Assembly (NCBI GenBank): GCA_017431345.1
Contig: JAFRLH010000007.1
Location: 1-64,000, forward strand
Direction of reading: 5' to 3'
DNA length: 64,000 bases
Source of the DNA: Lachnospiraceae bacterium
GTDB lineage: Bacteria; Bacillota; Clostridia; Lachnospirales; Lachnospiraceae
Both the position numbers and the translations under genes were made by a program. Shown here piece after piece: positions 17,125 through 41,271 of this stretch; the stretch's first letter is position 1, and each line of letters starts with the position of its first letter. The notes under the pieces are model-generated. The model saw only the letters and a program-made list of their open reading frames with translations, was not told where the DNA came from and did no database searches.

Positions 17125-17137
17125 AGGGAGAATTCTG

Positions 17138-18643
17138 ATGACGATTACTGATTATTTGTATATCCAGGCGGAAAGGATTCCGGACAGGACAGCTTTTTTC
17201 GACAGTAAGAACAGCTTTACCTATAAAGAACTGCTGTATACTGCAGAAGCTGTCGCCACCGGACTCCTCGCACGCGTCTGCGGCAGCAGACAGCCGGTGG
17301 CAGTTGTGATTGACAGGAATGTGGAGAGCATTGCTGCCTTTATGGGGATTGCCATCAGCAGGAATTTTTATGTGCCGATCGACAATACACAGCCGAAAAA
17401 GAGGATCCTTACCATTCTGGAACAGATGCAGCCGAAAGCTGTCATCCTGGCAGCGAAGCTGCCGGAGGATGTAAGAAGGGAGATAGAGATCCCGGTAATC
17501 CCTTATGAGGAACTGGCAGATACTTCCCCGGACAGGGCGATGCTGGAGACGATCAGAAAGAGCGCGATGGACACGGATCCGCTGTATGCGATCTGCACTT
17601 CCGGATCCACCGGCGTCCCCAAAGGCGTTCTTATATCCCATCGATCGGTCATGGATTTTATTCCGGTCTTTACGAAGACTTTCGGTTTTACGGAAAATGA
17701 TATTTTCGGCAATCAGGCGCCGTTTGATTTCGACGTATCGGTAAAAGATATTTATTCTGCCCTGTTCCTCGGCGCGACGGTATACATTATCCCCAGAATG
17801 TGCTTTATCATGCCAAAACTCCTGATGGATGCACTGGATGAGAAACATGTTTCCGTGATTATCTGGGCCGTATCGGCAATGTGCGTTGCCGCGGAAACGA
17901 ATGTGCTTGACTACAGAGTACCAGGGGCACTGAGAAAGATCCTGTTCTCCGGAGAAGTGATGCCGATCAAGATGCTGAATATCTGGAGACAGGCTGTCCC
18001 GGATGCAATGTATGTAAACCTTTACGGCCCGACAGAGATCACCTGCAACTGCATGTATTATATCCTGGACCGGGAATTCGGTCTGACTGACAAAATACCG
18101 CTCGGTGAAGTGTTTGAGAATGAAGCGGTTTATGTATTGAATGATCAGGATCAGCCGGTAGCGGTCGGAGAAACCGGAGAGATCTGTGTTACCGGAACCT
18201 GTCTTGCGATCGGATACTACAGAAATCCTGAAAAGACGGCAGCGGCTTTTGTCCAGAATCCGCTGCAGAGCGATTTCCCGGAACGGATGTACAGGACAGG
18301 AGATATGGCGGAATTGGCACCGGACGGACAGTATTATTTTGCAGCAAGGAAGGATTTTCAGATCAAGCATATGGGCCACCGGATCGAGCTGGAGGAGATC
18401 GAGATCCATCTGGGTGCACTTCCCGGCGTGTCCCGGGCAAGCTGTCTGTTTGATGCGGAAAAGAATAAGATCGTTGCTTATTATACAGGTACGCCGGATA
18501 AGAAGGAAGTGATCGCCGGGCTGAAGGAATCCCTGCCCAAATATATGGTCCCCAATATTTTTATCAAAACAGACCGGCTGCCGCTCAATAAGAATGGAAA
18601 GATCGACAGACAGGCATTGAGAAAGCAATATGAAGAACAATAA
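17138..18643 (+). CDS. AMP-forming adenylation enzyme, DltA-like
   Basis: 501 residues of the ANL superfamily, resembling D-alanine:carrier ligases and NRPS adenylation domains. All core motifs are visible: TSGSTGVPKG (P-loop, about residue 152), YGPTE (about 297), YRTGD (about 387), GHRIELEEIE (about 413) and the catalytic NKNGKID near the end. The start is at MTITDYL (17138), with AGGGAGA upstream, not the in-frame ATG at 17084 inside the previous gene. No carrier protein lies beside it; the only one in the window is the ACP at 33946, in a divergent operon. It may load D-alanine or another acid for polymer esterification. The specificity residues were not read with confidence. Confidence 0.85.
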   Translation: MTITDYLYIQAERIPDRTAFFDSKNSFTYKELLYTAEAVATGLLARVCGSRQPVAVVIDRNVESIAAFMGIAISRNFYVPIDNTQPKKRILTILEQMQPKAVILAAKLPEDVRREIEIPVIPYEELADTSPDRAMLETIRKSAMDTDPLYAICTSGSTGVPKGVLISHRSVMDFIPVFTKTFGFTENDIFGNQAPFDFDVSVKDIYSALFLGATVYIIPRMCFIMPKLLMDALDEKHVSVIIWAVSAMCVAAETNVLDYRVPGALRKILFSGEVMPIKMLNIWRQAVPDAMYVNLYGPTEITCNCMYYILDREFGLTDKIPLGEVFENEAVYVLNDQDQPVAVGETGEICVTGTCLAIGYYRNPEKTAAAFVQNPLQSDFPERMYRTGDMAELAPDGQYYFAARKDFQIKHMGHRIELEEIEIHLGALPGVSRASCLFDAEKNKIVAYYTGTPDKKEVIAGLKESLPKYMVPNIFIKTDRLPLNKNGKIDRQALRKQYEEQ

Positions 18644-24220: not shown

Positions 24221-25345
24221 TCAGTCTAAACTCTTCAGATAGTTCATGAAGTTTGTCTTGTTTTCCAGCGCTGTTGTAGTAGGCCGGCCGAGGTCGGCAC
24301 GGGCCCCGATGGAACACTTGATCTCGATCAGACGGAGACCGCTGTTTTCCTTCGCAGCAGCAAGCTCTCTGTCAAGATCTTCAAAATTATCAACACTGAC
24401 AGCATCGGGATAGCCGCAGGCTTTTGCTGCAGCGACGACATCGATCTTTCCGGCTGCGGTAGGCATGCCGCCTACTGTTTCGTGGGCGCCGTTGTTGATC
24501 ACGATATGCACCAGATTGGCAGGGCAGACCGAGCCGGTGACCGCGAGCGCGCCCATATGCATCAGCATGGAACCGTCTCCGTCAATGCACCAGATCTTAT
24601 GATCCGGCTTGTTGATCGCAATGCCCAGGGCAATGGAAGAGGTATGTCCCATGGAACCGACGGTCAGGAAATCGTACTGATGGCTCTGGCCGTTGGCAAC
24701 TCTGATCTCGAAGAGCTCCCGGCTTGCTTTTCCCGTTGTTGAGACGATGGGATCAGTACCGGTAAAAGCTGCAATGTGCCGGATGATCTCTTCCCGGACC
24801 ATTTTGTTCCCGTTTTTGTAAACGACCTTTTTGTCCATTGTCAGGGCGTTCTTGCGGATGATGAATGCGACCGATTTTCCGGCAGCAAGGATTCCTCTGA
24901 AGTCATCCATGGCTGCAGAAAGCTCTTCAGGCGCAGTATCTTCCGAGACAATGAAAGGTTTGATGTCCATATCCTCCATCAGTTTCACGGTTACCTGCCC
25001 CTGATAGATGTGCTGCGGTTCGTCATGGACGCCGGGCTGGCCCCGCCAGCCGATCACGAAGATGACCGGGATGGCATAAACTTTGTCATTCAGCAGAGAG
25101 GCAACGGGATTGATGATGTTTCCCTGACCGGAGTTCTGCATATAGACGACAGGAACTTTGCCGGTGGCGAGATGATAACCGGCCGCAAGGGCAGTGCAGT
25201 TGCCTTCATTTGCAGCGATCAGATGATGGTGCGGATCAATGCCGTAAGTATCCATCAGATAGTTGCAGAGTGCTTTGATCTGGGAATCGGGTACGCCGGT
25301 ATAAAAATCTGCGCCCAGTATGTCAACAAATGTTTTAATATCCAT
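24221..25345 (-). CDS. aepY: Phosphonopyruvate decarboxylase (ThDP-dependent)
   Basis: 374 residues. It converts phosphonopyruvate to phosphonoacetaldehyde and CO2, the step that pulls the unfavourable PEP mutase reaction forward. The N-terminus keeps FYTGVPDSQI and the catalytic-type Glu in AANEGNCTALAAGYH. The ThDP-binding region is IDGDGSMLMHMGAL, followed by NNGAHETVGG. HDEPQH in the middle is typical of the family. Length is normal for AepY. It lies 2 nt downstream of the reductase and one gene from PEP mutase, so the pathway order is complete: mutase, decarboxylase, reductase. Related sulfopyruvate decarboxylases are an alternative, made unlikely by the neighbours. Confidence 0.92.
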   Translation of the reverse strand: MDIKTFVDILGADFYTGVPDSQIKALCNYLMDTYGIDPHHHLIAANEGNCTALAAGYHLATGKVPVVYMQNSGQGNIINPVASLLNDKVYAIPVIFVIGWRGQPGVHDEPQHIYQGQVTVKLMEDMDIKPFIVSEDTAPEELSAAMDDFRGILAAGKSVAFIIRKNALTMDKKVVYKNGNKMVREEIIRHIAAFTGTDPIVSTTGKASRELFEIRVANGQSHQYDFLTVGSMGHTSSIALGIAINKPDHKIWCIDGDGSMLMHMGALAVTGSVCPANLVHIVINNGAHETVGGMPTAAGKIDVVAAAKACGYPDAVSVDNFEDLDRELAAAKENSGLRLIEIKCSIGARADLGRPTTTALENKTNFMNYLKSLD

Positions 25346-25347
25346 GC

Positions 25348-26472
25348 TTAATTCTCCTGTCTTAAGATCTCATGATACAGGGCGTCAATGGTTTCCTCGT
25401 CCAGCCTCACGGGATGGTTCTTAAGTCTTACGGGATTAACGGAGGTCTTCAGAACGTCGAAATCCTCTGCCGCTGCTGCCGGGGCTTTCAGATCCAGCGC
25501 GCTGACGATCTGGTTAAGCTTTGCTGCGGCTTCTTCCGGCGAACGGCACCCCATGGCTTCAGCGATTCCTGCAAAGACGCCTTTCAGGTATTCCTCACCG
25601 CGGGGATCGATGCAGCGGTCTGTATGCGCAAGCATCCAGGGGAACAGGACACGGTCGCACAATGCAGCGGCGTGTCCGTGCGCGATCCCGTACAGGCTTG
25701 TAAGTTTATAGCACATGGCATGGCCTGCGGTGGTCTGTGTGATGTTGATCGCTTTTCCGGCTGTATTTGCGGCAATCAGCATGGCGGCATTCGCTTCGTC
25801 GTCGTTGGCGATATAGCCGTCCATGTTTGCCAGTACCATTTCAATCGCGTTCCGGCTGTAAACGCGGCTTTCCTCCGTGCTGTTGACAGACCAGAAGGAC
25901 TCGATCGAATGACACAGCGCATCGAGCATCGTACTCTTTTTCTGATAGAGGGGAAGCGTCTTCAGCGCGCTGCTGTCCATCAGGACAGCGGACGGGATCA
26001 TACTTTCATGCGTAACAGACTGTTTCGCATCGTTGTAATAGATGACGGCATATCTGGTCGCTTCGGAACCCGTGCCGGCTGTGGTAGGGATCGCCATAAG
26101 AGGAACATCGTTGGGGACGATCTCCTGCTGCAGATAATTGACGGCGGGATCCATATTGCTGTACAGCTTGATGCATTTTGCCACATCGATGGCTGAGCCG
26201 CCGCCGATCGCGGCGATCGCGTCACAGTCGGAGCTGTTGAATAAAGCGACGCCGTTATAAACGGATTCATACAGCGGATTCGGCTGAAAATCATCAAAGA
26301 AAACGACATCGATCCCGGTACGTTCTTTCAGCGTTTTAAAATAATCATTCAGGCGAAGGAATGGCAGAGAAGCGTCGCATACCAGAAAAATGCGCTTATA
26401 CTGCTGTTCTTTAAAATAGGTGTCCAGTTCGGCATAGTTCTCCGAGCCTTTGAGTATTAACTGTTCTTTCAT
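25348..26472 (-). CDS. Iron-containing alcohol dehydrogenase, phosphonoacetaldehyde reductase
   Basis: 374 residues of the group III iron-dependent alcohol dehydrogenases. It shows the nucleotide-binding GGGSAIDVAK (about residue 90), PTTAGTGSEAT (about 129) and the metal-ligand region ALCHSIE (about 185), with further His residues at TTAGHAMCY and GIAHGHAA. In phosphonate clusters this family (PhpC-like) reduces phosphonoacetaldehyde to 2-hydroxyethylphosphonate. No aminotransferase that would make 2-aminoethylphosphonate occurs in this operon, which favours hydroxyethylphosphonate as the end product. The 18-nt gap to the PEP mutase fusion and 2-nt gap to aepY show a tight operon. Confidence 0.88.
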   Translation of the reverse strand: MKEQLILKGSENYAELDTYFKEQQYKRIFLVCDASLPFLRLNDYFKTLKERTGIDVVFFDDFQPNPLYESVYNGVALFNSSDCDAIAAIGGGSAIDVAKCIKLYSNMDPAVNYLQQEIVPNDVPLMAIPTTAGTGSEATRYAVIYYNDAKQSVTHESMIPSAVLMDSSALKTLPLYQKKSTMLDALCHSIESFWSVNSTEESRVYSRNAIEMVLANMDGYIANDDEANAAMLIAANTAGKAINITQTTAGHAMCYKLTSLYGIAHGHAAALCDRVLFPWMLAHTDRCIDPRGEEYLKGVFAGIAEAMGCRSPEEAAAKLNQIVSALDLKAPAAAAEDFDVLKTSVNPVRLKNHPVRLDEETIDALYHEILRQEN

Positions 26473-26490
26473 TCCATCAGTACCTCTGAA

Positions 26491-28497
26491 TCATTCTGCA
26501 GGGATCAGGTTGATGATCTCCTTGATCGACATGCACTTGTCGTCGCATTCTTTCGCGCGGTGGTTCTCCAGGATCGTTCTGGCAGCGTCCTGCATGGCCG
26601 GGAAACCGGTGCGTGTAAGCTGGTTCGCATAGATGATGATATTGGCGCCTCTTGCCTTGCATTCCTCTTCCGTGACTGTGTTGTAGGAAGTGGGTACGAG
26701 TACGATGGGCGTGATCTTATTGTCGGCTCTGAACTTTTCGATGAATTCGAAGATCTCGGAAGGATCTTTCTTTCTGCTGTGGATCATGACAGCATCTGCG
26801 CCTGCTTCGACATAGGCATGCGCGCGCTTCAGGGCTTCTTCCATGCCGAGTTCCAAAATCAGTGCTTCGATTCTGGCGCAGATCATGAAATCGGCGGATT
26901 TCTGTGCTTTCTTGCCGGCGCTGATCTTTTCGCAGAAGTGTTCAATGGTATCTACAGTCTGCTTGACTTCCGTGCCGAAAAGGCTGTTCTTCTTCAGACC
27001 GGTCTTATCTTCGATAATGACCATGGAAACGCCCATTCTCTCAAGCGATCGGACAGTATATACGAAGTGCTCTGTAAGCCCGCCGGTATCGCCGTCGAAG
27101 ATGATGGGCTTGGTGGTGACTTCCATGATATCGTCGATCGTGCGGAAACGGCTGGTCATGTCAACAAGCTCGATATCGGGCTTTCCTTTTGCCGTGGAAT
27201 CACACAGAGAGCTGACCCACATGGCGTCGAACTGTCTGGTGCCGCCGTTCTGATAGACCATGGTCTTCTCGACGATCAGGCCGGTGATGCCGCTGTGGGC
27301 TTCCATAGCGGTGACCAGGCCCTTCATCGCAAGTGTTTTCTTCAGACGGGCTCTGCGCATGTCAGGCAGAGAAAGCTTCTCGCGGGCACGGTCATCCATC
27401 TCCTTGTACTTGGGATCGCTGGAATAAGGGAACTCCACGAGCTTACCGCCGTAGGAAGCCAGGATGGATACCACTTCGTCGCGGACCGGTCTCTGGAAAC
27501 CGCTGACCCAGTCATCCCCGTGAACAACGATATCGGGATGGTATTTTTCCAGATTTTCCTTATAAGAGAGTGTACGCTGCTCCACGACTCTGTATACGCC
27601 GGAAATGTTCTCGAACATGGCCCTGCGTTCCTCCGCGGGAACGAGCGGGAACCGTTTGTATCCGGCCACGGCTTCATCCGAAAGCACACCGATGATCAGG
27701 CGGCCGAGCCGTTCGGCTTTCCGGATGATCGCGATGTGTCCGCTGTGGATGATATCCGTGGAGAAGGTCATGTATACAGTACGGGATTCCACTTCGCGCA
27801 GTCTTGCGGAAACGACAGCAAGATCTTCCGGATTGTCGATCTCTGCACAGAGCAGATTCTTGACATCGAGCGCTTTGATATGGCAGTCTTCTGCCACTTC
27901 GTTCAGCGCATTCTCAGCATAGCATTTTACCTGGTTATTCTCACAGAACCGGATGATGCGGTCGAGCCATACTCTGAAATCGTCTTTTTTCAGGAGATAC
28001 AGGGGCTGTGCAGCCATGGCTTCATCAAAGAATTCAATACCGACCTTTTTTACCATGCCGTCTCTGACGACTGCCTTGAAGTCCTTCTCCGGCAGTTCCA
28101 GCGTGGAAGAAACGGTCATGGCAGATGATTCGGAAGCAAGAAGCATGTCGAAGACTTCGTTCTCAAATACCAGATCGCCGTGCATGAGAATAATGTCATC
28201 GTCAAGATATTCCCTGGCGCAGTAAATGGAATAGATGTAGTTCGTTTTGTCGTAGACAGGATTCTTTACGAAACGGATATTGACGGGCAGTTCCAGGGAC
28301 TGGCAGTAGTTGATGAGTACACTGTCAAAGGATCCTGTCGTCATCACTACATCCGTGATTCCCCGCTGCATCAGCATGTTCAGCTGTCTGGAAAGGATCG
28401 TTTCGCGTCTTGAGATCTCAGTCATGCATTTGGGATGCTCGGATGTCAGAACGCCCATTCTGCTTCCAAGACCTGAGTTTAATATCAAAGCTTTCAT
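26491..28497 (-). CDS. Three-domain fusion: nucleotidyltransferase, TagD-like cytidylyltransferase, PEP mutase
   Basis: 668 residues. Residues 1-225 are a sugar-phosphate-type NTP transferase (LNSGLGSRMG at the start, then EHPKCM), like PntC/LicC enzymes that make CMP-phosphonate or CDP-choline. Residues 235-365 are a TagD/GCT-like cytidylyltransferase with the HxGH signature in DIIHSGHIAII (about 246) and VVHGDDW. Residues 375-650 are phosphoenolpyruvate mutase, with IEDKTGLKKNS (about 493), the EDK-x5-NS motif that separates true PEP mutases from isocitrate-lyase relatives, and FDGDTGG before it. The fusion would join C-P bond formation with CMP activation of the phosphonate; the TagD-like domain may make a second CDP precursor. 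The start follows an in-operon position 4 nt after the previous stop. Confidence 0.9.
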   Translation of the reverse strand: MKALILNSGLGSRMGVLTSEHPKCMTEISRRETILSRQLNMLMQRGITDVVMTTGSFDSVLINYCQSLELPVNIRFVKNPVYDKTNYIYSIYCAREYLDDDIILMHGDLVFENEVFDMLLASESSAMTVSSTLELPEKDFKAVVRDGMVKKVGIEFFDEAMAAQPLYLLKKDDFRVWLDRIIRFCENNQVKCYAENALNEVAEDCHIKALDVKNLLCAEIDNPEDLAVVSARLREVESRTVYMTFSTDIIHSGHIAIIRKAERLGRLIIGVLSDEAVAGYKRFPLVPAEERRAMFENISGVYRVVEQRTLSYKENLEKYHPDIVVHGDDWVSGFQRPVRDEVVSILASYGGKLVEFPYSSDPKYKEMDDRAREKLSLPDMRRARLKKTLAMKGLVTAMEAHSGITGLIVEKTMVYQNGGTRQFDAMWVSSLCDSTAKGKPDIELVDMTSRFRTIDDIMEVTTKPIIFDGDTGGLTEHFVYTVRSLERMGVSMVIIEDKTGLKKNSLFGTEVKQTVDTIEHFCEKISAGKKAQKSADFMICARIEALILELGMEEALKRAHAYVEAGADAVMIHSRKKDPSEIFEFIEKFRADNKITPIVLVPTSYNTVTEEECKARGANIIIYANQLTRTGFPAMQDAARTILENHRAKECDDKCMSIKEIINLIPAE

Positions 28498-28500
28498 AAT

Positions 28501-29787
28501 TTACACCTCTGCTGCAAGTTTTGCTTTTTGGGGCTGTTTACCGGTTTCCACGCCTGCTTTTTCAGCAAGCTCTTTCTGTTTCTGGATCATATAATCGGCG
28601 GTAAGCACGGCGCTTTCTCCGATATGCGCCCATGCTTCGCTTCTTGCCTTGTCACGTCCTGCGGAGAGCGTATCGCTTGCGATCGCGCTGTCGATCACTT
28701 CCTTCAGGTGAGGAATATCATCTTCCCTGAGCGGAACGCCGATCTCGGGAAGAATTTTGAATTTCCACATGTCATCATCGAGCCATGCGGCGTCGTACGG
28801 ATCCTTCACGAACGTGTTCTCCGTGTAAAGGATCGGTTTGTTGAAGATCAGCGTATAGTCGAAGATGACGCTGGAGAAATCTGAGATCATGATATCCGCT
28901 GTATGGAGCGATTCAAAATTGTCACTGCTGCGGTCCCAGTGCACCCGTTCGCCGTCCGGATATTTTTTCATCAGCTCTTCCATCAGTTCCTTTTCGGAAC
29001 GGAAGGACTGGGGATGAGGGCGGATAATGATGTTGTAGCCGGTCTCCAGCAGGGAATCGATCATCCGGCTGCCGAAACGGTTGAGAATGCCGCTGGCGCC
29101 CCACGAAGGCGCGAGCAGAACGGTGGTGCCTTCATGCGCGGCAGAGGGTGCATCTTTAAGACGGTTCCAGAGACGGTCCATGTAGGTGCAGCCGAGCACC
29201 TTCAGTTCTTTCTCCGGCAGACCGCGTTTGTGTTCCAGTTCGCGGATCTCATCGATCTGGAAGGCGCCGGTCAGAAGCACGGCGTCATAGTAGTCCAGGC
29301 TGAACATGCGGTAGCCGGCGGCCGAGGTGCCGGCAGCATGCAGGGTATGTACATACCAGTCGACGTTCCTGGAGCGTTTCCACTGGAGGACATCCAGTCC
29401 GGGCGTCGTGGCCAGGACGATGCAGGCATTCATCATGTTCAGCTTTGAAAAAGCGTGATTGCCTTCTCCGATGAATTCACATTTTACATATTCATACTTC
29501 TTTTCCAGTCCGGGATCATCCGGGGAAGCGGTCCAGTAATTGAGCCCGATCTTCCGTCTCTCGAATTCGTCGCAGATCGGCTCAAATACATTCCAGTACT
29601 GTTTGCCGTCGCTGAAAATGACAAACGGAAGCTTATTGGAATTCATCTTCTCGACTTTGCCGCCGCTTAAGCGGAACTTCAGTTTGAAGAAAAATTTCTG
29701 GGCAAAGAAATACAGTGTCGTAATAGCTCCCAGCAGGATAGTGAAAAGCATACTTCCCGTACCGGGATCGATATAGGCAGAAAGCAT
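28501..29787 (-). CDS. Membrane-anchored CDP-glycerol glycerophosphotransferase-like protein
   Basis: 428 residues. It begins YIDPGTGSMLF plus a hydrophobic segment (about residues 10-33), an N-terminal anchor common in this subgroup. The transferase domain has TLHAAGTSAAGY (about 150) where others have WHG, LLAPSWGASG (about 223), IRPHPQSF (about 254) and SDFSSVIFDYT (about 304). It is the first gene of the operon making and activating hydroxyethylphosphonate. It is therefore the best candidate for the enzyme that transfers the phosphonate, or a polyol phosphate carrying it, to the polymer. The change from WHG to LHAAG may mark a donor different from CDP-glycerol. Donor and acceptor are unproven. 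Confidence 0.8.
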   Translation of the reverse strand: MLSAYIDPGTGSMLFTILLGAITTLYFFAQKFFFKLKFRLSGGKVEKMNSNKLPFVIFSDGKQYWNVFEPICDEFERRKIGLNYWTASPDDPGLEKKYEYVKCEFIGEGNHAFSKLNMMNACIVLATTPGLDVLQWKRSRNVDWYVHTLHAAGTSAAGYRMFSLDYYDAVLLTGAFQIDEIRELEHKRGLPEKELKVLGCTYMDRLWNRLKDAPSAAHEGTTVLLAPSWGASGILNRFGSRMIDSLLETGYNIIIRPHPQSFRSEKELMEELMKKYPDGERVHWDRSSDNFESLHTADIMISDFSSVIFDYTLIFNKPILYTENTFVKDPYDAAWLDDDMWKFKILPEIGVPLREDDIPHLKEVIDSAIASDTLSAGRDKARSEAWAHIGESAVLTADYMIQKQKELAEKAGVETGKQPQKAKLAAEV

Positions 29788-29914: not shown

Positions 29915-30946
29915 TCAGAGGTCTTTCAATTGACGCCAGAACCATGCTTCAAGGTGCATAAAGACAGGATGAGACAGGATCAGCGTGATCAGGGGGGCAG
30001 CTAAAAGGTACAGGATCTTCCATTTATTGCCTTCGGGCGGAAAGATCGTCTGCAGCATCAGGCCGCTGTAGACGACAGGGAGCTGGAACAGACGATGGAA
30101 CATATAGATCGGAAGCGTATGCGTTCCTATATAAGTGAACAGATTGGTCTCTGACGGTATCAGGATCAGGACGGCTGCGGAGATCAGAATGGACAGGCAG
30201 TAATGGAGCAGACGGTAAAATCCGCATAACCTGACTTGATCTGCGCCGATCATTGATTTGAGCGAAGGATAGGAATATCCTCCTTTGATCAGTTCAATAT
30301 AAGGATACAGGGATTCTATATTTGTAATAAGGAAAAACAGAACAGCCGCAAGGAAGACGGCAGAGAGTGTTTTCCACATGTATTTTTTCGACGCCGGATC
30401 CGTCCATGTACGGTCCCAGAAGGTCCCGAGCAGAAAGAACGGATAATACACAAAGAATCTTGAACTGCTGAAAAGGGCACCGACCGCTTTGTCATATCCT
30501 GCCAGGCAGCCGAACAAAAATGCCAGGAACAGCAGGAAACCGCCCGGCATATTCCGGAGACACCAGGTGAGAAGAAGATACGCCGCGAGAACCAGAAGAT
30601 ACCACGGGATGGAATTCTCCTCCCACATATAGAATTTTTTTATTTCATAATATCCGAACGGGAGCCTGACGAGAAGAACGATGAATTTCAGCAGGAAGCC
30701 GAGGATCAGATATCCGATCACACGCTGCTTCAGTTTGTATCCGGTCCTGACTGTGCGCACAAGAAGAAGTCCCGAGAGGAACATAAAAAGGGGCATGTGA
30801 AACAGGTAGATAAACATATAAAATGTCCTGCAGAGAGAGGACACCTCGAGCAGATCATACAGTGCATGACCTGTTACGACCAGCAGGATGAGGAGTGCTT
30901 TCGCGTTATCCCACTTTGCAATTCTTTCATCAGCTGAGTTATGCAT
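29915..30946 (-). CDS. Acyltransferase-3 family membrane protein
   Basis: 343 residues with about ten hydrophobic segments. The N-terminus has the family pattern RIAKWDNAKALLILLVVTGH, with the conserved His, followed by YLFHMPLFMFLSGLL. Members such as OafA, OatA and NolL add acetyl or other acyl groups to surface glycans; this one lacks the extra SGNH domain of OatA and resembles the short fucose-acetylase type. It is the last gene of the FkbH/ACP operon, 4 nt after the SGNH gene, whose product could act as its partner. No terminator is visible before the next operon's promoter, so some read-through is possible. Confidence 0.85.
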   Translation of the reverse strand: MHNSADERIAKWDNAKALLILLVVTGHALYDLLEVSSLCRTFYMFIYLFHMPLFMFLSGLLLVRTVRTGYKLKQRVIGYLILGFLLKFIVLLVRLPFGYYEIKKFYMWEENSIPWYLLVLAAYLLLTWCLRNMPGGFLLFLAFLFGCLAGYDKAVGALFSSSRFFVYYPFFLLGTFWDRTWTDPASKKYMWKTLSAVFLAAVLFFLITNIESLYPYIELIKGGYSYPSLKSMIGADQVRLCGFYRLLHYCLSILISAAVLILIPSETNLFTYIGTHTLPIYMFHRLFQLPVVYSGLMLQTIFPPEGNKWKILYLLAAPLITLILSHPVFMHLEAWFWRQLKDL

Positions 30947-30950
30947 ACGA

Positions 30951-31997
30951 TTACGAATCCTCCAATCCGACCAGTTCGTCCTTTGTTACTGCTTCGGATA
31001 TGATCTTATGATATTTCGTCCATGCACTGTTCCATGCGGCATCGTCCCGCCGGCTGCTGCCCAGGGAATAGTTTTCCTTAAGATACCGGGCAAGGAACTT
31101 CGATACTTTCAAAGATCCGTGAATGTTGTTGTGCAGTTTGTTGTAAAAATCGGATCTGCAGTCAAGCCCGATCTCATCGGCACAGCTGCAGAGATTCAGT
31201 GTGTCAAAGCCGCTGCTGTTCAAAAGATCGTCGACAGCGTTGTACACCTTCAGCTGTTTTTCGGAAACCAGCTGGGGAGAATGAATGAACAGCACACGGA
31301 GATCATTCGCTCTGCAGTATTCCATCAGATCCTTCAGACATGCCAGTGTATCTTCAGGAATGTCGCCTCTTTCCTCTGTGACCGTAAAACCTGTTCCCTG
31401 ATCTTCGGCGGCGTGCAGAAATTTATCGTAATGACTTCCGCCTTTCAAGCCGTCCAGCGCATAATGGAAATCGTCTTTCGTAAGTTCTTTCCAGCGGGAG
31501 TGGTAACGGATGATCGGGAAATAGTATTCCAGTCGGTCTGTTCCATGAATGCCCGCATTGTCGCACAGCGCTTCGATCAGATGAATTTTGTTCACGGAAA
31601 ACGGAACATAGTCTGTATGAAAATGGATCTTGTTCTCCTTGATATCCAGATTATATTCGTTCATGACAATAATGAACAAAGGATCTTTCTGCTTTTTGCG
31701 GATCTCTTCCATATAGTATTTCGCAGCGGATATCCTGTTCCCGTTGCAGGAATAACTGGCTGTTTTGATCCCCTCTGCAGCCCAGAGGACGGGCGGCTGA
31801 TAGAACGCATACGCGTTGCTTCCGCCTATAAATACTGCGTCCAGGGAGTTTTCCGGTTCCGCGTAAAAGCCCCGGATGAGCTGATAATTTCTTGGATCAG
31901 ATGGAGAACTGACCGTCTTCTGGATGCTGAAAAACAAAAGAAGCAGAAACAGAAAAAATACTGCAGTTTTTATAATCGTCTTAAATCTGGTTTTCAT
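30951..31997 (-). CDS. Membrane-anchored SGNH/DltD-like protein
   Basis: 348 residues. A single N-terminal hydrophobic segment (about residues 8-26) leads to an extracellular SGNH-like domain with the serine block FIGGSNAY (about 56) and the C-terminal DFYNKLHNNIHG (about 282), which offers Asp and His of a D-x-x-H type. This is the plan of DltD and AlgJ/AlgX-type partners of MBOAT proteins, which finish acyl transfer to a glycan outside the membrane. It lies 2 nt downstream of the MBOAT gene. Sequence similarity to true DltD looks weak, so the call rests on topology, motifs and context. Confidence 0.75.
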   Translation of the reverse strand: MKTRFKTIIKTAVFFLFLLLLFFSIQKTVSSPSDPRNYQLIRGFYAEPENSLDAVFIGGSNAYAFYQPPVLWAAEGIKTASYSCNGNRISAAKYYMEEIRKKQKDPLFIIVMNEYNLDIKENKIHFHTDYVPFSVNKIHLIEALCDNAGIHGTDRLEYYFPIIRYHSRWKELTKDDFHYALDGLKGGSHYDKFLHAAEDQGTGFTVTEERGDIPEDTLACLKDLMEYCRANDLRVLFIHSPQLVSEKQLKVYNAVDDLLNSSGFDTLNLCSCADEIGLDCRSDFYNKLHNNIHGSLKVSKFLARYLKENYSLGSSRRDDAAWNSAWTKYHKIISEAVTKDELVGLEDS

Positions 31998-31999
31998 GA

Positions 32000-33535
32000 T
32001 CAGAATGCCTCATAAATGAACGACTGCGCTTCGTATCCGGGACCGTAAACGCCAAAGACCAGGACCGCAGCGAACAGCAGCAGTATGACAGCCCACCGGA
32101 ATACAAGGTTCTGCCCGGAGAGCTTTTCCCTGACGCTGCCTGTTTCCTGTATTCCGGAAACGACCAGCAGGATCAGAAAACCGAACAGGAGAACAAAGAA
32201 ATCCTTCCCGTCCAGTCCGAGCGTGAAAAGAGACCCGTCAAAGAACAGTTCGGGATTCCAGTGGGAGAATCCGCGTTTGATCGTGCGCAGAGAGGTAATA
32301 AAACCGTTCAGCCGGAAAAACATGTTTCCGATGCTGACCAGGATCAGTACGCGGAGGGAACACAGAAAATGCCAGCTGAAGCAGTCGGTGCGGATCTGAA
32401 AACGGTCGTACAGATCCATGCGGAAAGGTTCGCTGACCTGTTCCCAGACGATGATCACCCAGAACCAAAGGCCCATTCCGATGATGAATTTCCAGTTGCC
32501 GCCATGCCAGAGCCCGATCAGAAGCCATACGCAGAGCATGGCAAGATACGTGGGGATCTGCCGGGACGCCTTTTTGCTGAAATGTTTTTTCAGCTTTTTG
32601 GGAAGATTGCGGAATGTTTTTGAGCGCAGGATCGGATACAGTACATAATCTTTCAGCCACTCTCCGAGGGTGCTGTGCCATCTCTGCCAGTACTCCTGCA
32701 CCGTCTGGGAGAAAAACGGAGTGCGGAAGTTTTCCGGAAGCGTGACGCCGTAGCATTCGGCAGCGCCGATGATAATGTCCATACAGCCGGAAAAATCAGT
32801 ATAGAGCTGCAGCATGAACAAGACTGCGGCCAGCCATATATACAGGCCGTTGTATCTGCCGGTATCGGCGTAGATCGTATCCACGATGACGCCGGCTCTG
32901 ACAGAAATAACAAGCTTCTTGAATACGCCCCACAGCATCCTGAGCAAGCCGTCAGAGATCCTCTTTGAATCAAAAGCGTGCTCCCCGTAAAGAGAATCCT
33001 TTACCTGCGCGTAGCGGGCGATCGGGCCGGATGTAAGCTGGGGATAAAAACCGGCAAAGAGCAGCGTTTTCAGCAGTGATCTCTGCGGCGGAGTAATATC
33101 CCAGTACACGTCCAGCAGATATCCGGTGACCTGAACAGCGTAAAAGCTTAATCCGATCGGCGCGGCAAGGTGCAGCTCATGAAGCGGCGGCTTCGCATGG
33201 AAAAGGCGCGCGGCCAGGGATATATTCTCGATCAGGAAATTGCTGTATTTTAGTGCGGCAAGGATGCCGAGATTCACTGCAAGTCCGCAGATCAGAAAAC
33301 GAAAAGCACGTTTCCCGTCCCCGCGCTGCCTGGAAGCCGCCATCTGAACTGCGCAGAGATGCGCTGCTGCAGCGCCGGCCAGAAGATAGAGGATCGTCAG
33401 CGGATGTCCGGAACACAGGAAAAAAAACACGCTGAACACAAGGAGCATGCACCATTGCCATGACCGCGGAAGCAGATAATAGATAAATAATGAAATTATA
33501 AAGAAACAGAAAAAAGGGAACGATGTTACAGACAT
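32000..33535 (-). CDS. MBOAT family O-acyltransferase (AlgI/DltB-like)
   Basis: 511 residues with about 11-12 hydrophobic segments. The MBOAT signature regions are present: FAGFYPQLTSGPIARY, FSGCMDIIIGAAECYG, EYWQRWHSTLGEWLKDYVLYP and the catalytic His in LWHGGNWKFIIG. AlgI and DltB pass an acyl group across the membrane, DltB taking D-alanine from its carrier protein. Here the operon carries its own ACP, so the donor is probably the ACP-bound product of FkbH. The 6-nt gap to the VOC gene and 2-nt gap to the SGNH gene show tight coupling. A second MBOAT/SGNH pair, without an ACP, lies at 38509-41158. Confidence 0.92.
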   Translation of the reverse strand: MSVTSFPFFCFFIISLFIYYLLPRSWQWCMLLVFSVFFFLCSGHPLTILYLLAGAAAAHLCAVQMAASRQRGDGKRAFRFLICGLAVNLGILAALKYSNFLIENISLAARLFHAKPPLHELHLAAPIGLSFYAVQVTGYLLDVYWDITPPQRSLLKTLLFAGFYPQLTSGPIARYAQVKDSLYGEHAFDSKRISDGLLRMLWGVFKKLVISVRAGVIVDTIYADTGRYNGLYIWLAAVLFMLQLYTDFSGCMDIIIGAAECYGVTLPENFRTPFFSQTVQEYWQRWHSTLGEWLKDYVLYPILRSKTFRNLPKKLKKHFSKKASRQIPTYLAMLCVWLLIGLWHGGNWKFIIGMGLWFWVIIVWEQVSEPFRMDLYDRFQIRTDCFSWHFLCSLRVLILVSIGNMFFRLNGFITSLRTIKRGFSHWNPELFFDGSLFTLGLDGKDFFVLLFGFLILLVVSGIQETGSVREKLSGQNLVFRWAVILLLFAAVLVFGVYGPGYEAQSFIYEAF

Positions 33536-33541
33536 GGGATG

Positions 33542-33949
33542 TTATTCCTTTCCTGACTCCAGGAGTTCTATCATGCCGATCCGGGCACTCTGCAGAAAGC
33601 AGACCCTGCGCATTCCGAACGCCGGCGCAGGAGCCGGCTCACCGATCGGGACGAACCCTTCTTTCCGCAGGTCTGCAATGCCGGAGGACAGATCGCTGAC
33701 CTCATAGCAGATATGATACGGCATATTTTTCACCTTCTTTATCAGATCTGCGACAACAGAATCATCCGAGAAGGGAGATACCAGCTCGATCGTGTATCCG
33801 TCCTTCTCAAGAAAGCAGATATCCACATCCCTGTATTCGTCGCGGCATACCTCTGAAACCGGCTGAAAGCCAAGAGCGCAGAATACGCTTTTGGCTTTCC
33901 CGATATTTTTGACCAGATATCCTATATGGTCGATCTTCATTTTATTCAT
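33542..33949 (-). CDS. VOC (glyoxalase-fold) family protein
   Basis: 135 residues with two beta-alpha-beta-beta-beta units: DHIGYLVKNIGKAKSVF at the start, YTIELVSP midway, then HICYEVSDLSSGIADL and IELLE at the end. The His, Glu, His, Glu spacing resembles metal-binding VOC enzymes such as methylmalonyl-CoA epimerase. It overlaps the ACP gene by 4 nt and lies before the MBOAT gene. A role in epimerising or modifying the acyl group while on ACP would fit but is inference. Starts at MNKMKID; the second Met is an alternative. Confidence 0.8.
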   Translation of the reverse strand: MNKMKIDHIGYLVKNIGKAKSVFCALGFQPVSEVCRDEYRDVDICFLEKDGYTIELVSPFSDDSVVADLIKKVKNMPYHICYEVSDLSSGIADLRKEGFVPIGEPAPAPAFGMRRVCFLQSARIGMIELLESGKE

Positions 33950-34188
33950 TCTGCCAGCCTTTCGATCACATCAGCCATGGCGCCGACATCTTTCAGGCCC
34001 TGCACGGCTTTCATGTCAAAGGTAATGTCAAATTCGTCTTCAATAGCAGACAGAAGCGTGATATGCGTAAGGGAATCCCAATCTTCAATGTCTGCGGCTG
34101 TTGTGGAATCCTGAAGCGTGATCTCTTCATCATCGAACACATCCCGGAATACTTCTTCCAGTGTCTTGAATATATCTTCTCTTGTCAT
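33946..34188 (-). CDS. Acyl carrier protein
   Basis: 80 residues, acidic and helical, with the phosphopantetheine serine in DWDSLTHI (Ser39). Size and charge are typical of a discrete carrier protein. It overlaps FkbH by 4 nt at its start and the VOC gene by 4 nt at its end, so all three are translationally coupled. By analogy with FkbH systems it should carry a glyceryl (or similar C3) thioester. It is also the only carrier in the window that could serve the DltA-like enzyme at 17138. Confidence 0.92.
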   Translation of the reverse strand: MTREDIFKTLEEVFRDVFDDEEITLQDSTTAADIEDWDSLTHITLLSAIEDEFDITFDMKAVQGLKDVGAMADVIERLAE

Positions 34189-35984
34189 TTGTTTTCCCTC
34201 CGTTCCTCACTGTTGACCTGAATGACATGGTTTTTGTTTTCATAGGTGCTGATATCTTTGTATTCCCACACGGCATTTCCGTCAGGATCTTCTTCGATCC
34301 GTTCGAATCCGTGTGCCTCGTAAAAATTCCGGACCATTCCGTTCTTGGCGGTAGGATAGTAATAGCCGCGAATGGTACGGATGCCGCAGGCCGCTGCCTG
34401 CCGGACCAGTTCATCCATCATGGCAAATTCCATATCGCGCTTCAGTACACGGCAGCTCATGAGCCAGAGAATGATATCCAGCCGGTCTTCCTTCTTCTCG
34501 GCGATCACTACGGTGACAACGCCGTTGTCTCCGAAACAATCGGAAAGCTGCCCGTACAGGGTGATGTATTTTGGATCTTCGGTGAATCCGATGATCTCAT
34601 CTGCCGTACAGCGCTTTGTGGTAAGGTTGAACTGATTGCTCTTGTTCGTCAGCTGGGCAATACGGGGAATGTAGATCGCCTCGAAAGGCCTGATGACAGC
34701 CTTCATCCCGAGAGAGAGCAGATAATCTTCGTAGTTGTCGAAGGAACTCTGCTGTTTCGCGCGGGCGAGATTCTCCTTATACATCTCATTGCGCTTCAGG
34801 TCGTCCGCGGAAAGAGAAGTCGTCTCGAAATACCCTGCACGGTCGATCTCCGTAATGTAGTGCTCTACTTTGGTCAGCTCGGGCACGGCCGCTCCGGGTA
34901 CCTGCTTGCGGATGATCGCGCGTTCAGCCGGATTGTCATCGGCAAACACAAAGGCTTCCGGAAGCAGTGTCAGTTCCTCGGCAGTCTGCACGAGATTGCG
35001 GCTCTTCGGTTCCCAGTTCGCCTTGATGACCAGGAAATCATCGGGCTTCAGGATCATCTGCGGATGCCGGAGTCCTGCCATTGCATTTTCCTCTTCGTTC
35101 TTGGAATTGACGGTAAGAAGAACGCCCTGGAGGCGGAGATCCCGCAGATACTGCTGAAATTCACTGTAAGCCTGGCCCATAGGGGTCTCCTGCCCGAGAT
35201 CAAGGCCTTCCGGTCCGTCGTCGCCGACGATGCCGCCCCAGAGGGTATTGTCAAGATCAAGGGAAAGTGCTTTTTTATTCTTCCCGAATACGGATTTGAT
35301 AATATTGCTCAGGTTGTAGGCAAAGTACGGAATGGCGTCAAGGCACATGGCGTATTTGTACATATGCCATGCAAAAGGATCCGACCATTTCTGAAGACCG
35401 TAATCCGCCGCCAGGTAGTTAATGTCGTGGATCAGGAACGTATCGTGTGTCTGGGCATAGCTGTAAAAAAACGCATTCAGACGCTGAACATAGTTCGTAC
35501 GCCCGTGTATATCGGCTGCATCCTGATTGCCAAGGAGCCTGTAATAGGGATATTCAAAATTGTTCTGTATTACAGGACAGTGGTAATCGGCTGACAGTTT
35601 GTCCCACATGGCCTGAAAATGATCCGCCTGGCGGGACAGCATCCCGTCTATCATGTCTGCCCCGAGTCCGGGAACAGGCCATTCGGTAATGTTTCTCAGC
35701 GATGTATGGATATAAATGATATCAGGGTGAAATTCAGCCAGTGCGGAATCCGGGAACATGGCATCCTGCCAGTACTGCCCGTATTCCGATTCATAAAACA
35801 CCGGACGGATGCCCTGATTCAGGAGGAACAGCTCCAGCATATCACGGATGTCATGGGTAGTCGATCCGCCGAGGATCATGATCCGTTTCTCGATTAATCC
35901 GTCCTGTGAAGACAGCGTCCTGCGAATGGAACGGCGCTTCCGCATCAGCATCTGGCCGTCAAAAGGGTAATTCAGTTCCTGCAT
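34185..35984 (-). CDS. FkbH-like HAD-IIIC protein (glyceryl-ACP synthase type)
   Basis: About 599 residues. Residues 30-220 form an SGNH-like region with IMILGGSTTHDI. The HAD-IIIC core begins at LSLDLDNTLWGGIVGDDG (about 238), with the Asp-x-Asp pair, and ends near VFADDNPAER. The C-terminal GNAT-like region (about 460-590) includes LYGQLSDCFGDNGVV. FkbH proteins capture D-1,3-bisphosphoglycerate, remove a phosphate and load the glyceryl unit onto an ACP. The start was set at MQELNYP (35984), with GGAG 9 nt upstream; the in-frame ATG at 36059 lies close to the promoter. It is the first gene of the operon. Acyl identity is family-based. Confidence 0.88.
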   Translation of the reverse strand: MQELNYPFDGQMLMRKRRSIRRTLSSQDGLIEKRIMILGGSTTHDIRDMLELFLLNQGIRPVFYESEYGQYWQDAMFPDSALAEFHPDIIYIHTSLRNITEWPVPGLGADMIDGMLSRQADHFQAMWDKLSADYHCPVIQNNFEYPYYRLLGNQDAADIHGRTNYVQRLNAFFYSYAQTHDTFLIHDINYLAADYGLQKWSDPFAWHMYKYAMCLDAIPYFAYNLSNIIKSVFGKNKKALSLDLDNTLWGGIVGDDGPEGLDLGQETPMGQAYSEFQQYLRDLRLQGVLLTVNSKNEEENAMAGLRHPQMILKPDDFLVIKANWEPKSRNLVQTAEELTLLPEAFVFADDNPAERAIIRKQVPGAAVPELTKVEHYITEIDRAGYFETTSLSADDLKRNEMYKENLARAKQQSSFDNYEDYLLSLGMKAVIRPFEAIYIPRIAQLTNKSNQFNLTTKRCTADEIIGFTEDPKYITLYGQLSDCFGDNGVVTVVIAEKKEDRLDIILWLMSCRVLKRDMEFAMMDELVRQAAACGIRTIRGYYYPTAKNGMVRNFYEAHGFERIEEDPDGNAVWEYKDISTYENKNHVIQVNSEERRENK

Positions 35985-36086
35985 TATTTTGTGCTCCGGA
36001 AAGTCTTGTCTAATGGAAATGGATCGCCGGAAACCTGTGTAAAACACGGTAAAACGCAAGTTTTCCGCCGTATCTCCATCCTGATT

Positions 36087-38508: not shown

Positions 38509-39576
38509 TTATTCAAGTTTCGGTTCCAGACCGAGATTTGCTTCATTCACATAGCCGCGGTCACGGCACAGCGTGTCAAAGTCTTCATAGAAACAGCCGC
38601 TGACATCCTTTCCGGCAAAATATTCTTTCATGATCAGGCTGAACTGCTCTGAAAAAACAGGCGCTGCCTTGTTTCCCATGTGGGTGGGATTCTGATAATA
38701 TTTATCACTCAGGTACTCGAAATCCGTCTTGTCCTTCCAAAGGTTAAAATCCACATACGCAAGGGAATTCTCGTCCGCGATTTCCTGATAATAATCATGG
38801 ATCTCCTGCAGATTGGTGTATTTTGCAATGGAATATTCCGAGACAGGCATGGAAACGAAGATCAGTTCCGCGCCGTGTTCCCTGCACAGATCGATGATCT
38901 TGTACAGATAATCGAGATTCTTCCGGTATCGTTCGATCTTTATGGCTGCAAGATGATATCGTTCATAAGGGAGCTTTTTGATCTTTTTATACTCCTCTTT
39001 CTTCTCGAAAGGAATATAGCCGCGCATCTGGTATTTGTTTACGGTCGTATATTCTCCGGTAAAGATCGCTTCCACGTCTTTGGCGGACCTTCGGAGGAGC
39101 TGTCTGTAAAGCCAGCCATAACTCGGAAGATTGAAGGACCGGAATGCGTAACGGATCCGTTTTCCGGGCGTATCCAGCCTGGGAATGACATACAGATCTC
39201 CTTCCCGGGTCCCTTCATAGGGGACGAGACTGAGGCTGTGCATGGACAATTCCAGATATACGGTCTTTACGGGGTTCCGGGCAAACTCTTCGAAGAGCAG
39301 CTGATAACGCCCCTGCATGGTCATTTCCGATGCAGACAGGTTATACGTGTTCGTGCCCAGGACCTTATCCATTTCTGCAGGGATCAGGGCGCGCTTTGCA
39401 TAAGATGCTCCGGAGATCAGCGTATCAATGCTTCCGGCCAGTGCAGCACGTTCCCGGATATCCTGATAGACATGGATCTCCGAGCGGAAGAAGATCTCGA
39501 AAAGGATCGTGGACAATACGGTAAAAGCCAGCACGAACAGGATGATCGTACGGATGGTCTTTTTAAAAGTCTGCAT
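38509..39576 (-). CDS. Membrane-anchored SGNH-like protein, second set
   Basis: 355 residues with an N-terminal hydrophobic segment (about 8-28) and an extracellular domain. SGASYAKRAL (about 55-64) offers a Ser in the SGNH block I position, LELSMHSLSL lies further on, and NPTHMGNKAA (about 305) resembles the Asp/Asn-x-x-His end motif. It overlaps the upstream MBOAT gene by 14 nt. The pair matches the PatA/PatB or AlgI/AlgJ arrangement used for O-acetylation or other acylation of surface glycans. Direct similarity to a named family is not clear to me. Confidence 0.72.
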   Translation of the reverse strand: MQTFKKTIRTIILFVLAFTVLSTILFEIFFRSEIHVYQDIRERAALAGSIDTLISGASYAKRALIPAEMDKVLGTNTYNLSASEMTMQGRYQLLFEEFARNPVKTVYLELSMHSLSLVPYEGTREGDLYVIPRLDTPGKRIRYAFRSFNLPSYGWLYRQLLRRSAKDVEAIFTGEYTTVNKYQMRGYIPFEKKEEYKKIKKLPYERYHLAAIKIERYRKNLDYLYKIIDLCREHGAELIFVSMPVSEYSIAKYTNLQEIHDYYQEIADENSLAYVDFNLWKDKTDFEYLSDKYYQNPTHMGNKAAPVFSEQFSLIMKEYFAGKDVSGCFYEDFDTLCRDRGYVNEANLGLEPKLE

Positions 39577-41158
39577 ACATGAATCCTCCTGCCGATTTCA
39601 GATAAGGACTGCCGATCCAGACTGTGATGATGATCAGCGCGGCCAGCAGAACGATCCGGAGAATGTAAGGGATGTGTTCGCAGAACCACTGTCTGGCGGG
39701 TCTTTTTCTGCCGATCAGATCGGCAATAAGCAGCAGCAGCGTGCCGATGCACAGGACAGTAAACTCGACATAATCACGGCTGGCACGGGGGATCAGCACC
39801 TCGAACGAGGCGGGGATCACATGATTCGTAAAGATCTGCCGCCACAGCCCCAGTCCTTTTCTTAAGCCGCCAAGTTCCGGCAGGATCTTGATCAGCGTAA
39901 GCAGTGTAAATGTCCGGATGATCTGAAACGCTTTCCACAGCGTGGACGCTTCATTGATCTTCAGCTTCTGTTTCCAGCCGTCATAGACCGGTTCCATCCA
40001 CAGGGAAAAGATAATGAACATGCCGTTCAGTCCGCCCCAGACGATGTATCCCCAGGAAGCGCCGTGCCACAGACCGGTCGTGAACCAGACGACAACAAGG
40101 GAAATGGAAGCGGGAACAGTGCTTCCGACAGTCTTGCCGAAATGCTTCTTCGCGAAACGGCCGATATTCTGGTTCCATTTTGCCGTGGCGATCGGATAGT
40201 AAAGATATGTCTTGAACCAGTTTCCGAGACTGATATGCCAGCGCCGCCAGTATTCCGCGACGGATTTGGAGAAATAAGGACGCATGAAGTTCTCGGTCAG
40301 ACGGATGTCGAGGATCTCACAGAAACCGCAGACGATATCCATATAACCGGAGAAATCGGCATAGATCTGGACGCTGTAAAGGAATGCGCCGAGCAGGGCT
40401 GAGATTCCGGTATAGTCCGGGTAATGGCCCGTCAGGTGCCTGAAATAAGCGGACAGGGCATTTGCCAGCGCCACTTTCTTGAAAAAGCCCCAGATCATCC
40501 TCATGGCACCCCATGAGAAATTGCGGTAAGTGAAGGAATGCTCTTTGAACAGTTCCGCGGAAAGATCGCTCCATACGCTGATGGGACCCTGGGTCACCTG
40601 CGGGAAGAAGGATGTGAACAGAAGCATCCGGAAGAAATTCTTCTCTGCGGGCACTTTTTTCCAGTAGACATCCACGACATAGCCCATCGTCTGGAATGTG
40701 AAGAAGGAGATCCCGAGCGGGGCGATGATCTTCAGGGTATCTTCGATCGGGGCACTGCCGAAAGCGGTAATAAGCCTGTTCACCTGTGCGATCACAAAGT
40801 GAAGATATTTAAAATAGGAAAGAAGGCCGAAATTGAGGAGCAGCGTGAGGGTGAGAATAAGCCGTGTACGTTTCTGATATTTATTTTTCAGCGCCGTTCT
40901 TCCGGCCCGGTCAAGAGATGCCTTCTTCTCTGCAAGTTCCTTTTTATGCTGCTGCTGGAGTGCTTCGATCCCGCGCGCGGCACCATAGGAGGATCCGGCG
41001 GTGATAAAGATATAAATCAGATTATTCCAACCGGTATAACTGTAAAAAAACAGACTGCCCGCAAGAAGCACCCACCACTGGTACTTTTTAGGGACGGCAA
41101 AATAGATCACGGTCAGTACCGGAAGAAAAAGGAGAAAATCAAACGATAGAAGATCCAT
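39563..41158 (-). CDS. MBOAT family O-acyltransferase, second set
   Basis: 531 residues with about 11 hydrophobic segments. Conserved regions: SFDFLLFLPVLTVIYF at the start, FTSFFPQVTQGPISVW, FSGYMDIVCGFCEILD, EYWRRWHISLGNWFKTYLYYP, and the catalytic-type His in LWHGASWGYIVWGGLNG. It is a close relative in plan to the MBOAT at 32000 but lacks an ACP or acyl-loading gene, so it probably uses an acetyl-type donor. The start MDLLSFD (41158) is preferred to the ATG at 41263, which would add 35 residues unlike the family; the ribosome binding site is weak (AAGGA). Promoter at 41272-41300. Confidence 0.9.
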   Translation of the reverse strand: MDLLSFDFLLFLPVLTVIYFAVPKKYQWWVLLAGSLFFYSYTGWNNLIYIFITAGSSYGAARGIEALQQQHKKELAEKKASLDRAGRTALKNKYQKRTRLILTLTLLLNFGLLSYFKYLHFVIAQVNRLITAFGSAPIEDTLKIIAPLGISFFTFQTMGYVVDVYWKKVPAEKNFFRMLLFTSFFPQVTQGPISVWSDLSAELFKEHSFTYRNFSWGAMRMIWGFFKKVALANALSAYFRHLTGHYPDYTGISALLGAFLYSVQIYADFSGYMDIVCGFCEILDIRLTENFMRPYFSKSVAEYWRRWHISLGNWFKTYLYYPIATAKWNQNIGRFAKKHFGKTVGSTVPASISLVVVWFTTGLWHGASWGYIVWGGLNGMFIIFSLWMEPVYDGWKQKLKINEASTLWKAFQIIRTFTLLTLIKILPELGGLRKGLGLWRQIFTNHVIPASFEVLIPRASRDYVEFTVLCIGTLLLLIADLIGRKRPARQWFCEHIPYILRIVLLAALIIITVWIGSPYLKSAGGFMYADF

Positions 41159-41271
41159 ACCAATCCTTAAAGCCGCATCAGGCTTTGTTGGGGGGAGCTG
41201 CCGGGAGCAGCTGCAGTTTCCGGGCATGCAGTGAAGCGGAAGAACAGCGTCCGCTTTACACACAGGTAAGC

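Follow-up and report, generated by a model that had tools for sequence, protein, structure and literature searches.

An FkbH–ACP–VOC–MBOAT–SGNH operon in a Lachnospiraceae bacterium: candidate glyceryl-type acylation of a surface polymer

Why does a predicted glyceryl loader stand in one operon with membrane and surface acyltransferases? The question is raised by the window analyzed here, a 64,000-nucleotide stretch of a Lachnospiraceae bacterium genome (GCA_017431345.1; contig JAFRLH010000007.1, positions 1–64,000, forward strand), in which six minus-strand genes encode an FkbH protein, an acyl carrier protein (ACP), a VOC protein, a membrane-bound O-acyltransferase (MBOAT), an SGNH-like protein, and an acyltransferase-3 (AT3). 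On balance, the evidence leans toward an answer in which the FkbH product would be held on the ACP and exported by the MBOAT–SGNH pair to a surface polymer. Sequence comparison gives good support to describing the operon as Dlt with a different loader, because the FkbH–ACP–MBOAT group recurs in relatives and because another operon of the same genome has the same order and homologous MBOAT and SGNH proteins. We infer glycerate as the delivered unit from the family membership of FkbH, and likewise infer the window ACP as the carrier and the identity of the acceptor polymer.

The operon and its recurrence

The operon opens with FkbH (34185..35984; 599 amino acids), the predicted glyceryl loader of the ACP, which has an ATG start in an open frame that also holds an earlier TTG at 36059. 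It is followed by the ACP (33946..34188; 80 amino acids; predicted phosphopantetheine site Ser39), the VOC protein (33542..33949; 135 amino acids), which may epimerize the acyl unit at C2 while the carrier holds it, and the MBOAT (32000..33535; 511 amino acids), which has a C-terminal FIYEAF shuttle motif with Tyr508. The SGNH-like protein (30951..31997; 348 amino acids), with a hydrophobic N-terminus, is a predicted extracellular acyltransferase, and AT3 (29915..30946; 343 amino acids) is the final gene of the tight group. FkbH and ACP overlap by 4 nucleotides, as do ACP and VOC; the gaps that follow are 6 (VOC–MBOAT), 2 (MBOAT–SGNH), and 4 nucleotides (SGNH–AT3). An earlier note on this DNA had placed the operon at 29915..35984, with 4-nucleotide overlaps and gaps of 2–6 nucleotides, and all six parts were found there; its coordinates hold, while its title leaves out AT3, which falls inside them. 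Family assignments are scores against the curated cut-offs of Pfam and NCBIfam models: FkbH reaches 284.4 bits with TIGR01686 (cut-off 146.65) and 38.1 with FkbH_N (27), the ACP 24.6 with PP-binding (20.8), the VOC protein 68.5 with Glyoxalase_4 (27), the MBOAT 46 with PF03062 (27), and AT3 55.9 with Acyl_transf_3, PF01757 (31). The SGNH-like protein matched no Pfam or NCBIfam family.

A point of reference lies on contig C37 of the same genome (loci L115 and L121), where an adenosine monophosphate (AMP) ligase, a carrier, an MBOAT, and an SGNH-like protein are encoded in that order. The best named matches of the ligase are to DltA (274–278 bits, under the cut-off) and the best match of the carrier is to DltC (27.4 bits against a cut-off of 68); the MBOAT, which ends in FLYAKF, reaches 153.5 bits with the DltB model (cut-off 375), and the fourth protein has no family match. 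We call this operon Dlt-like rather than Dlt because its matches fall below the Dlt cut-offs. The window MBOAT is 31% identical to the C37 MBOAT, and the window SGNH-like protein aligns with the fourth C37 protein (25% over 283 columns, E 3e-20), as expected of homologs. Contig C85 of the genome holds a further, 97-amino-acid DltC-like carrier gene.

Recurrence was assessed in two samples. The first comprises the best 80 FkbH loci listed in a scan with the window FkbH (58–81% identity), with flanks of at most 10 kb; it is biased toward close relatives because it holds the top-ranked matches, and its record titles are mainly those of Lachnospiraceae or Oscillospiraceae bins. A less biased sample comprises 120 genomes spread evenly over the same family, one per genus, of which 25, the source genome among them, have FkbH over the cut-off (five more with weak matches alone were excluded from the count). 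Neighborhoods were compared for 25 FkbH regions from 24 other genomes of this family; three of these regions are contigs of 4–6 kb, and one FkbH is split across two frames. The ACP, SGNH, and MBOAT profiles were built on the best 80 loci, so that divergent genes may be missed in the 25 regions.

Within 5 kb of FkbH, the best 80 loci have a same-strand ACP in 71 cases, a same-strand MBOAT in 56, and both in 51; an SGNH or GDSL gene lies within 7 kb in 42 of these 51. All four of ACP, MBOAT, VOC, and SGNH/GDSL are present in 25/80; only L001, L013, L021, and L063 have VOC on the strand that it occupies in the window. The cultured relative Kineothrix alysoides (L067) has FkbH, ACP, VOC, and MBOAT. 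The corresponding counts within 5 kb in the 25 regions are ACP 21, same-strand MBOAT 14, both 13, and VOC 9; six of the 13 regions with both also have SGNH/GDSL. The source genome has five MBOAT genes in 3.27 Mb, which gives a chance expectation of about 0.02 per 12 kb. The earlier note had proposed a search for co-occurrence of FkbH, ACP, and MBOAT, and the recurrent groups in relatives answer it favorably; because the grouping recurs in many relatives, it is more than chance.

A quick tree of 116 MBOATs places the window protein in a 62-row lineage with a Shimodaira–Hasegawa-like approximate likelihood ratio (SH-aLRT) of 100. Within this lineage 54 rows are near FkbH and the other eight are in FkbH regions, at a greater distance or on the opposite strand. 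The C37 MBOAT and the second MBOAT of the window fall outside it; the latter was labeled "far" by hand, although it shares the strand of FkbH and is 3.5 kb away, with two plus-strand genes in between. All but three rows of the tree come from FkbH regions, and several branches are long. At least seven label changes are forced, indicating that FkbH met MBOATs more than once.

The residues expected of a working system are kept. In FkbH, D243, D245, and C511 do not vary across 32 sequences, and we take them to be the HAD aspartates and the C-terminal cysteine, with the catalytic roles assumed for these. The motif DS[LFMIV] is present in 93/93 FkbH-linked ACPs, and the MBOAT histidines H287 and H344 are shared by all 94 sequences compared. 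The window MBOAT ends in SFIYEAF, a match to the C-terminal FXYXXF acyl-shuttle motif, whose tyrosine holds the acyl group in PatA and DltX according to PMC12148441. The motif is found in 57/57 FkbH-linked MBOATs of the best 80 loci and in 12/15 in the 25 regions. In the SGNH-like protein, S60 is invariant and D283 and H289 are kept in at least 90% (13 sequences). With gene order as in the C37 operon, homologous MBOAT and SGNH proteins, and shuttle motif and catalytic residues intact, the resemblance to Dlt drawn in the earlier note is borne out. Among the carrier proteins one stands apart by eye: that of L086 (G000:C73:47816-48016) has an odd N-terminal extension ending in Gly-Gly, like a peptide leader.

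Under the export reading, FkbH, replacing DltA, would draw glycerate from 1,3-bisphosphoglycerate and bind it to the ACP in thioester linkage; FkbH is described as loading glyceryl from this donor onto carrier domains in PMC8949500. The VOC enzyme would probably reset the C2 center of the glyceryl thioester from D to L, and the MBOAT would transfer the unit from the carrier to Tyr508, in the FXYXXF motif at the MBOAT C-terminus. The SGNH protein would receive the unit on S60 and esterify a hydroxyl of a teichoic-acid-like polymer from the surrounding genes, a polymer that probably also carries hydroxyethylphosphonate.

The VOC partner, the carried unit, and rival explanations

The earlier note had suggested that VOC might modify the acyl group; this gains strength from genome comparison, in which VOC tracks FkbH. 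In the family sample, VOC (E 1e-12) is found in 15/120 genomes, of which 14 have FkbH, compared with 25/120 overall (Fisher p 9e-11, kinship ignored); ten of its 16 matches lie within 4 kb of FkbH. In a class-wide sample of 245 genomes, all five genomes with VOC (E 1e-15) have FkbH, compared with 31/245 overall, and each VOC gene, one of them with in-frame stops, lies within 0.4 kb of an FkbH domain match. A third family has VOC in 4/14 genomes, each time beside FkbH (one FkbH in two frames). What is new here is that genomes with VOC nearly all have FkbH: 18/19 when the family and class samples are joined, with the source genome counted once. These counts rule out a chance neighbor, and because of them the VOC protein probably acts on the FkbH product. 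VOC also accompanies FkbH without an MBOAT within 5 kb, in 9 of the best 80 loci and in L088, L092, and L109, so that the product of FkbH is a likelier substrate for it than anything handled at the MBOAT.

Whether the protein is a C2 epimerase of glyceryl-ACP is, on sequence grounds, an evenly balanced matter. VOC superfamily chemistry is proton transfer next to a thioester, which suits glyceryl-ACP. H8, E55, H79, E128, and D37 are the same in all 16 sequences compared, the first four presumably in the metal-ligand roles of the superfamily. Other observations count against this assignment and against a strict tie to FkbH: Tyr39 aligns with the second acid of human methylmalonyl-CoA epimerase, an acid we assume to be catalytic, five of the 16 family-sample VOC matches lie elsewhere in FkbH genomes, and one (34% identity) is in a genome free of FkbH.

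It is also possible, if unlikely, that export proceeds as proposed with a unit other than glycerate, either because a glyoxalase-like VOC protein places lactyl or another 2-hydroxyacyl group on the ACP, or because glyceryl is altered by enzymes encoded outside the operon. The nearest solved relatives of the VOC protein, 2qh0 and 3hdp, are named lactoylglutathione lyase and glyoxalase-I and handle 2-hydroxyacyl thioesters. Further, other FkbH loci carry additional enzyme genes: within 6 kb of FkbH in the best 80 loci we find VOC in 36, MaoC in 12, transketolase halves in eight, and 2-hydroxyacyl-CoA dehydratase-like genes in three (L005, L006, L039), and SDR genes also occur. The dehydratase-like genes stand behind FkbH–ACP–MBOAT and would suit a 2-hydroxyacyl thioester; VOC and MaoC meet in one locus, L013, and 28/80 loci have none of these modules. 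However, the window group holds no further acyl-altering enzyme, and FkbH is a glyceryl loader by family, according to PMC8949500. The VOC, MaoC, transketolase, and dehydratase modules would be consistent with a unit that is modified on the carrier ahead of its export.

Two possible precedents, a flagellar glycan locus for the 3hdp gene and Campylobacter jejuni Cj1302 as an FkbH gene, found no confirmation in the searches made and have been set aside. No protein identical to the Clostridium acetobutylicum glyoxalase 3hdp was found in the family of G231 (14 genomes; best 50%). A di-O-methylglyceroyl sugar is linked to Cj1295 in PMC3068675, the accessible text of which has nothing on FkbH, and PMC13317340 gave no match to any of six terms looked for in it.

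Several results weigh against the export of an FkbH product by the MBOAT–SGNH pair. An MBOAT is absent within 5 kb in 24/80 and 11/25 regions (three of the 11 being contigs of 4–6 kb). In eight loci (L018, L023, L030, L034, L047, L055, L073, L074) FkbH–ACP stands beside phosphofructokinase and DnaX genes, in most cases with YbaB and RecR as well and with no MBOAT within 5 kb, and in L089 (8117-11631) and L109 (5408-13167) FkbH lies beside NeuB and GNAT genes, outside MBOAT range; L109 also has cytidylyltransferase, VOC, and flagellin genes. The FXYXXF motif is unspecific, being present in 35/40 other MBOATs of the best 80 regions, as it is in the MBOATs examined in the source genome, and it is missing from 3/15 linked MBOATs of the 25 regions. 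The window ACP matches the C37 carrier only weakly (E 0.026). The SGNH alignment profile retrieved no SGNH structure among solved structures, only weak matches to unrelated proteins, and just one of 13 members matched GDSL or DltD models, weakly.

Some of these results favor another explanation, to which we give little credence: FkbH, ACP, and VOC would feed a different product, such as an N-acylated sugar or small molecule, while MBOAT–SGNH or AT3 would move an unrelated acyl group from acyl-CoA. The loci with ACP or VOC and no MBOAT, among them L089 and L109, which possibly serve glyceroyl-substituted nonulosonic acids, would suit it, as would the FkbH domains in very long frames of other Clostridia; moreover, other MBOAT–SGNH pairs use acyl-CoA, according to PMC12148441. 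Against it stand the tight translational coupling from FkbH through SGNH, the frequency of same-strand MBOATs beside FkbH, and the separate lineage that these MBOATs form. The earlier note had named membership of a small-molecule pathway in relatives as an outcome that would refute it, and the result is mixed: the regions lacking MBOAT include the two NeuB/GNAT sugar loci, and some class-sample FkbH domains lie in open frames of about 2,200–4,300 amino acids. For the window operon itself a small-molecule pathway was rejected, the group holding no synthetase and relatives often pairing FkbH–ACP with MBOAT; the explanation is retained as a rival on account of FkbH genes elsewhere, which occur at sugar loci or within very long frames.

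Surrounding teichoic-acid-like and phosphonate genes

The acceptor proposed in the export reading is suggested by the surrounding locus, which looks like one for a teichoic-acid-like polymer: besides a UDP-galactopyranose mutase, TagF/TarL-like proteins, and a DltA-like ligase at 17084, it encodes two proteins that score above the cut-off for the D-ribitol-5-phosphate cytidylyltransferase subfamily. Immediately downstream of the operon, likewise on the minus strand, come a TagF-like polyol-phosphate transferase domain protein (28501..29787; PF04464, 40.7 bits, cut-off 22.1) and three phosphonate genes, which the earlier note had not mentioned. The first of the three (26491..28497) fuses two nucleotidyltransferase domains (PF12804, 34.2 bits; PF01467, 57.4 bits) to a phosphoenolpyruvate (PEP) mutase (TIGR02320, 397.1 bits, cut-off 319.55) that carries EDKTGLKKNS; the others encode an iron-type alcohol dehydrogenase (25348..26472; PF00465, 134.7 bits), predicted to be a phosphonoacetaldehyde reductase, and a phosphonopyruvate decarboxylase (24221..25345; TIGR03297, 447.1 bits, cut-off 312.5). 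Since a dehydrogenase is present and no aminotransferase is found among the scanned genes, 2-hydroxyethylphosphonate and its cytidine monophosphate (CMP) form are likely products, and the genes at 24221-28497 are predicted to supply CMP-hydroxyethylphosphonate for the surface polymer. Of the best 80 loci, with their flanks of at most 10 kb, L001, from the closest relative, is the only one in which these genes were seen, and also the only one in which a relative of AT3 was found. The fusion resembles Fom1, in which PEP mutase is joined to a PF01467 domain, and, by its PF12804 domain, PntC, as both are presented in PMC6697681; unlike them, it unites both domains in one protein and is encoded next to an alcohol dehydrogenase and the FkbH operon.

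The window also encodes a 924-amino-acid protein (21433-24207, minus strand) in which a YidC/Oxa1-like domain (76.5 bits, cut-off 35) is accompanied by a sulfatase-like stretch that narrowly misses its cut-off (23.7 bits, cut-off 25), and a 1534-amino-acid protein (12520-17124, plus strand) with, by eye, two TagF-like units in one chain. The DltA-like ligase (17084-18643, plus strand) is 39% identical to the C37 ligase, and the second MBOAT is followed by a protein that is DltD-like by eye (38509-41263, minus strand). That the window ACP also serves this ligase and this pair, to give a polymer with amino acid and hydroxyacid from one carrier, would accord with the lack of any carrier gene beside either in the window scans but is highly improbable, carrier genes being present elsewhere, on C37 and C85.

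Taken together, these observations permit a broader proposal, which we make tentatively: that there are widespread acylation machines of the Dlt plan with swappable acyl modules before a carrier–MBOAT–SGNH core, in which VOC, MaoC/SDR, transketolase, and 2-hydroxyacyl dehydratase would tailor the glycolytic C3 hydroxyacid of FkbH. The VOC proteins would then be glyceryl-ACP epimerases, a new activity, and the product of the window a polyol-phosphate polymer with glycerate esters and hydroxyethylphosphonate.

Comparison with known systems

D-alanylation sets surface charge in Gram-positive bacteria. A neutral hydroxyacid drawn from 1,3-bisphosphoglycerate would, if the export reading is true, couple glycolysis to the chemistry of the cell surface in many gut-type Lachnospiraceae and their relatives, and a testable function would be proposed for a VOC family currently named by distant resemblance. 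MBOAT–SGNH pathways besides Dlt are said in PMC12148441 to be without a similar carrier protein; the window-type operon would be a second carrier-dependent class. In the open-licence literature, no description of an FkbH-loaded Dlt-like gene set turned up, FkbH with ACP and teichoic acid, O-antigen, or polysaccharide biosynthesis gave no match, and FkbH with MBOAT gave only works on cyanobacterial peptides. The L-glycerate of gellan was considered as a precedent and dropped, the literature listing having shown nothing on its genes.

The operon shares with Dlt a loader, dedicated carrier, MBOAT, and SGNH or SGNH-like protein in one order, and its MBOAT matches the DltB model (118 bits, under the cut-off of 375). 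It differs in that the loader is FkbH, with no AMP-binding match, instead of the AMP ligase DltA; in that the ACP has no DltC match (the best in a genome-wide DltC search being 15.7 bits against 52.35); in the shuttle motif, which is fused to the MBOAT and is on DltX in Dlt; and in the added VOC gene. Plain Dlt is ruled out because the loader and carrier tests fail, no protein of the unit matching either DltA or DltC.

The other known systems each share a part. FkbH loaders of polyketide and peptide synthetases also have an FkbH domain adjacent to a carrier, as PMC8949500 indicates; unlike these, the window group has no synthetase, and its carrier has membrane and surface acyltransferases for neighbors. 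Methylmalonyl-CoA epimerase and glyoxalase I share the VOC fold family and the four kept metal-ligand positions, but the window protein falls under the methylmalonyl-CoA epimerase cut-off (53.8 bits against 114.95), does not keep the second acid, and tracks FkbH. PatA–PatB and AlgI-type pairs, as described in PMC12148441, combine an MBOAT bearing a fused C-terminal FXYXXF motif, as in the window operon, with a separate SGNH protein, to which the SGNH-like protein of the operon may correspond; they are acyl-CoA users without a carrier, whereas the window operon has an ACP and a loader. Judged from its sequences, the window operon appears to fit the MBOAT–SGNH pairs by most tested features.

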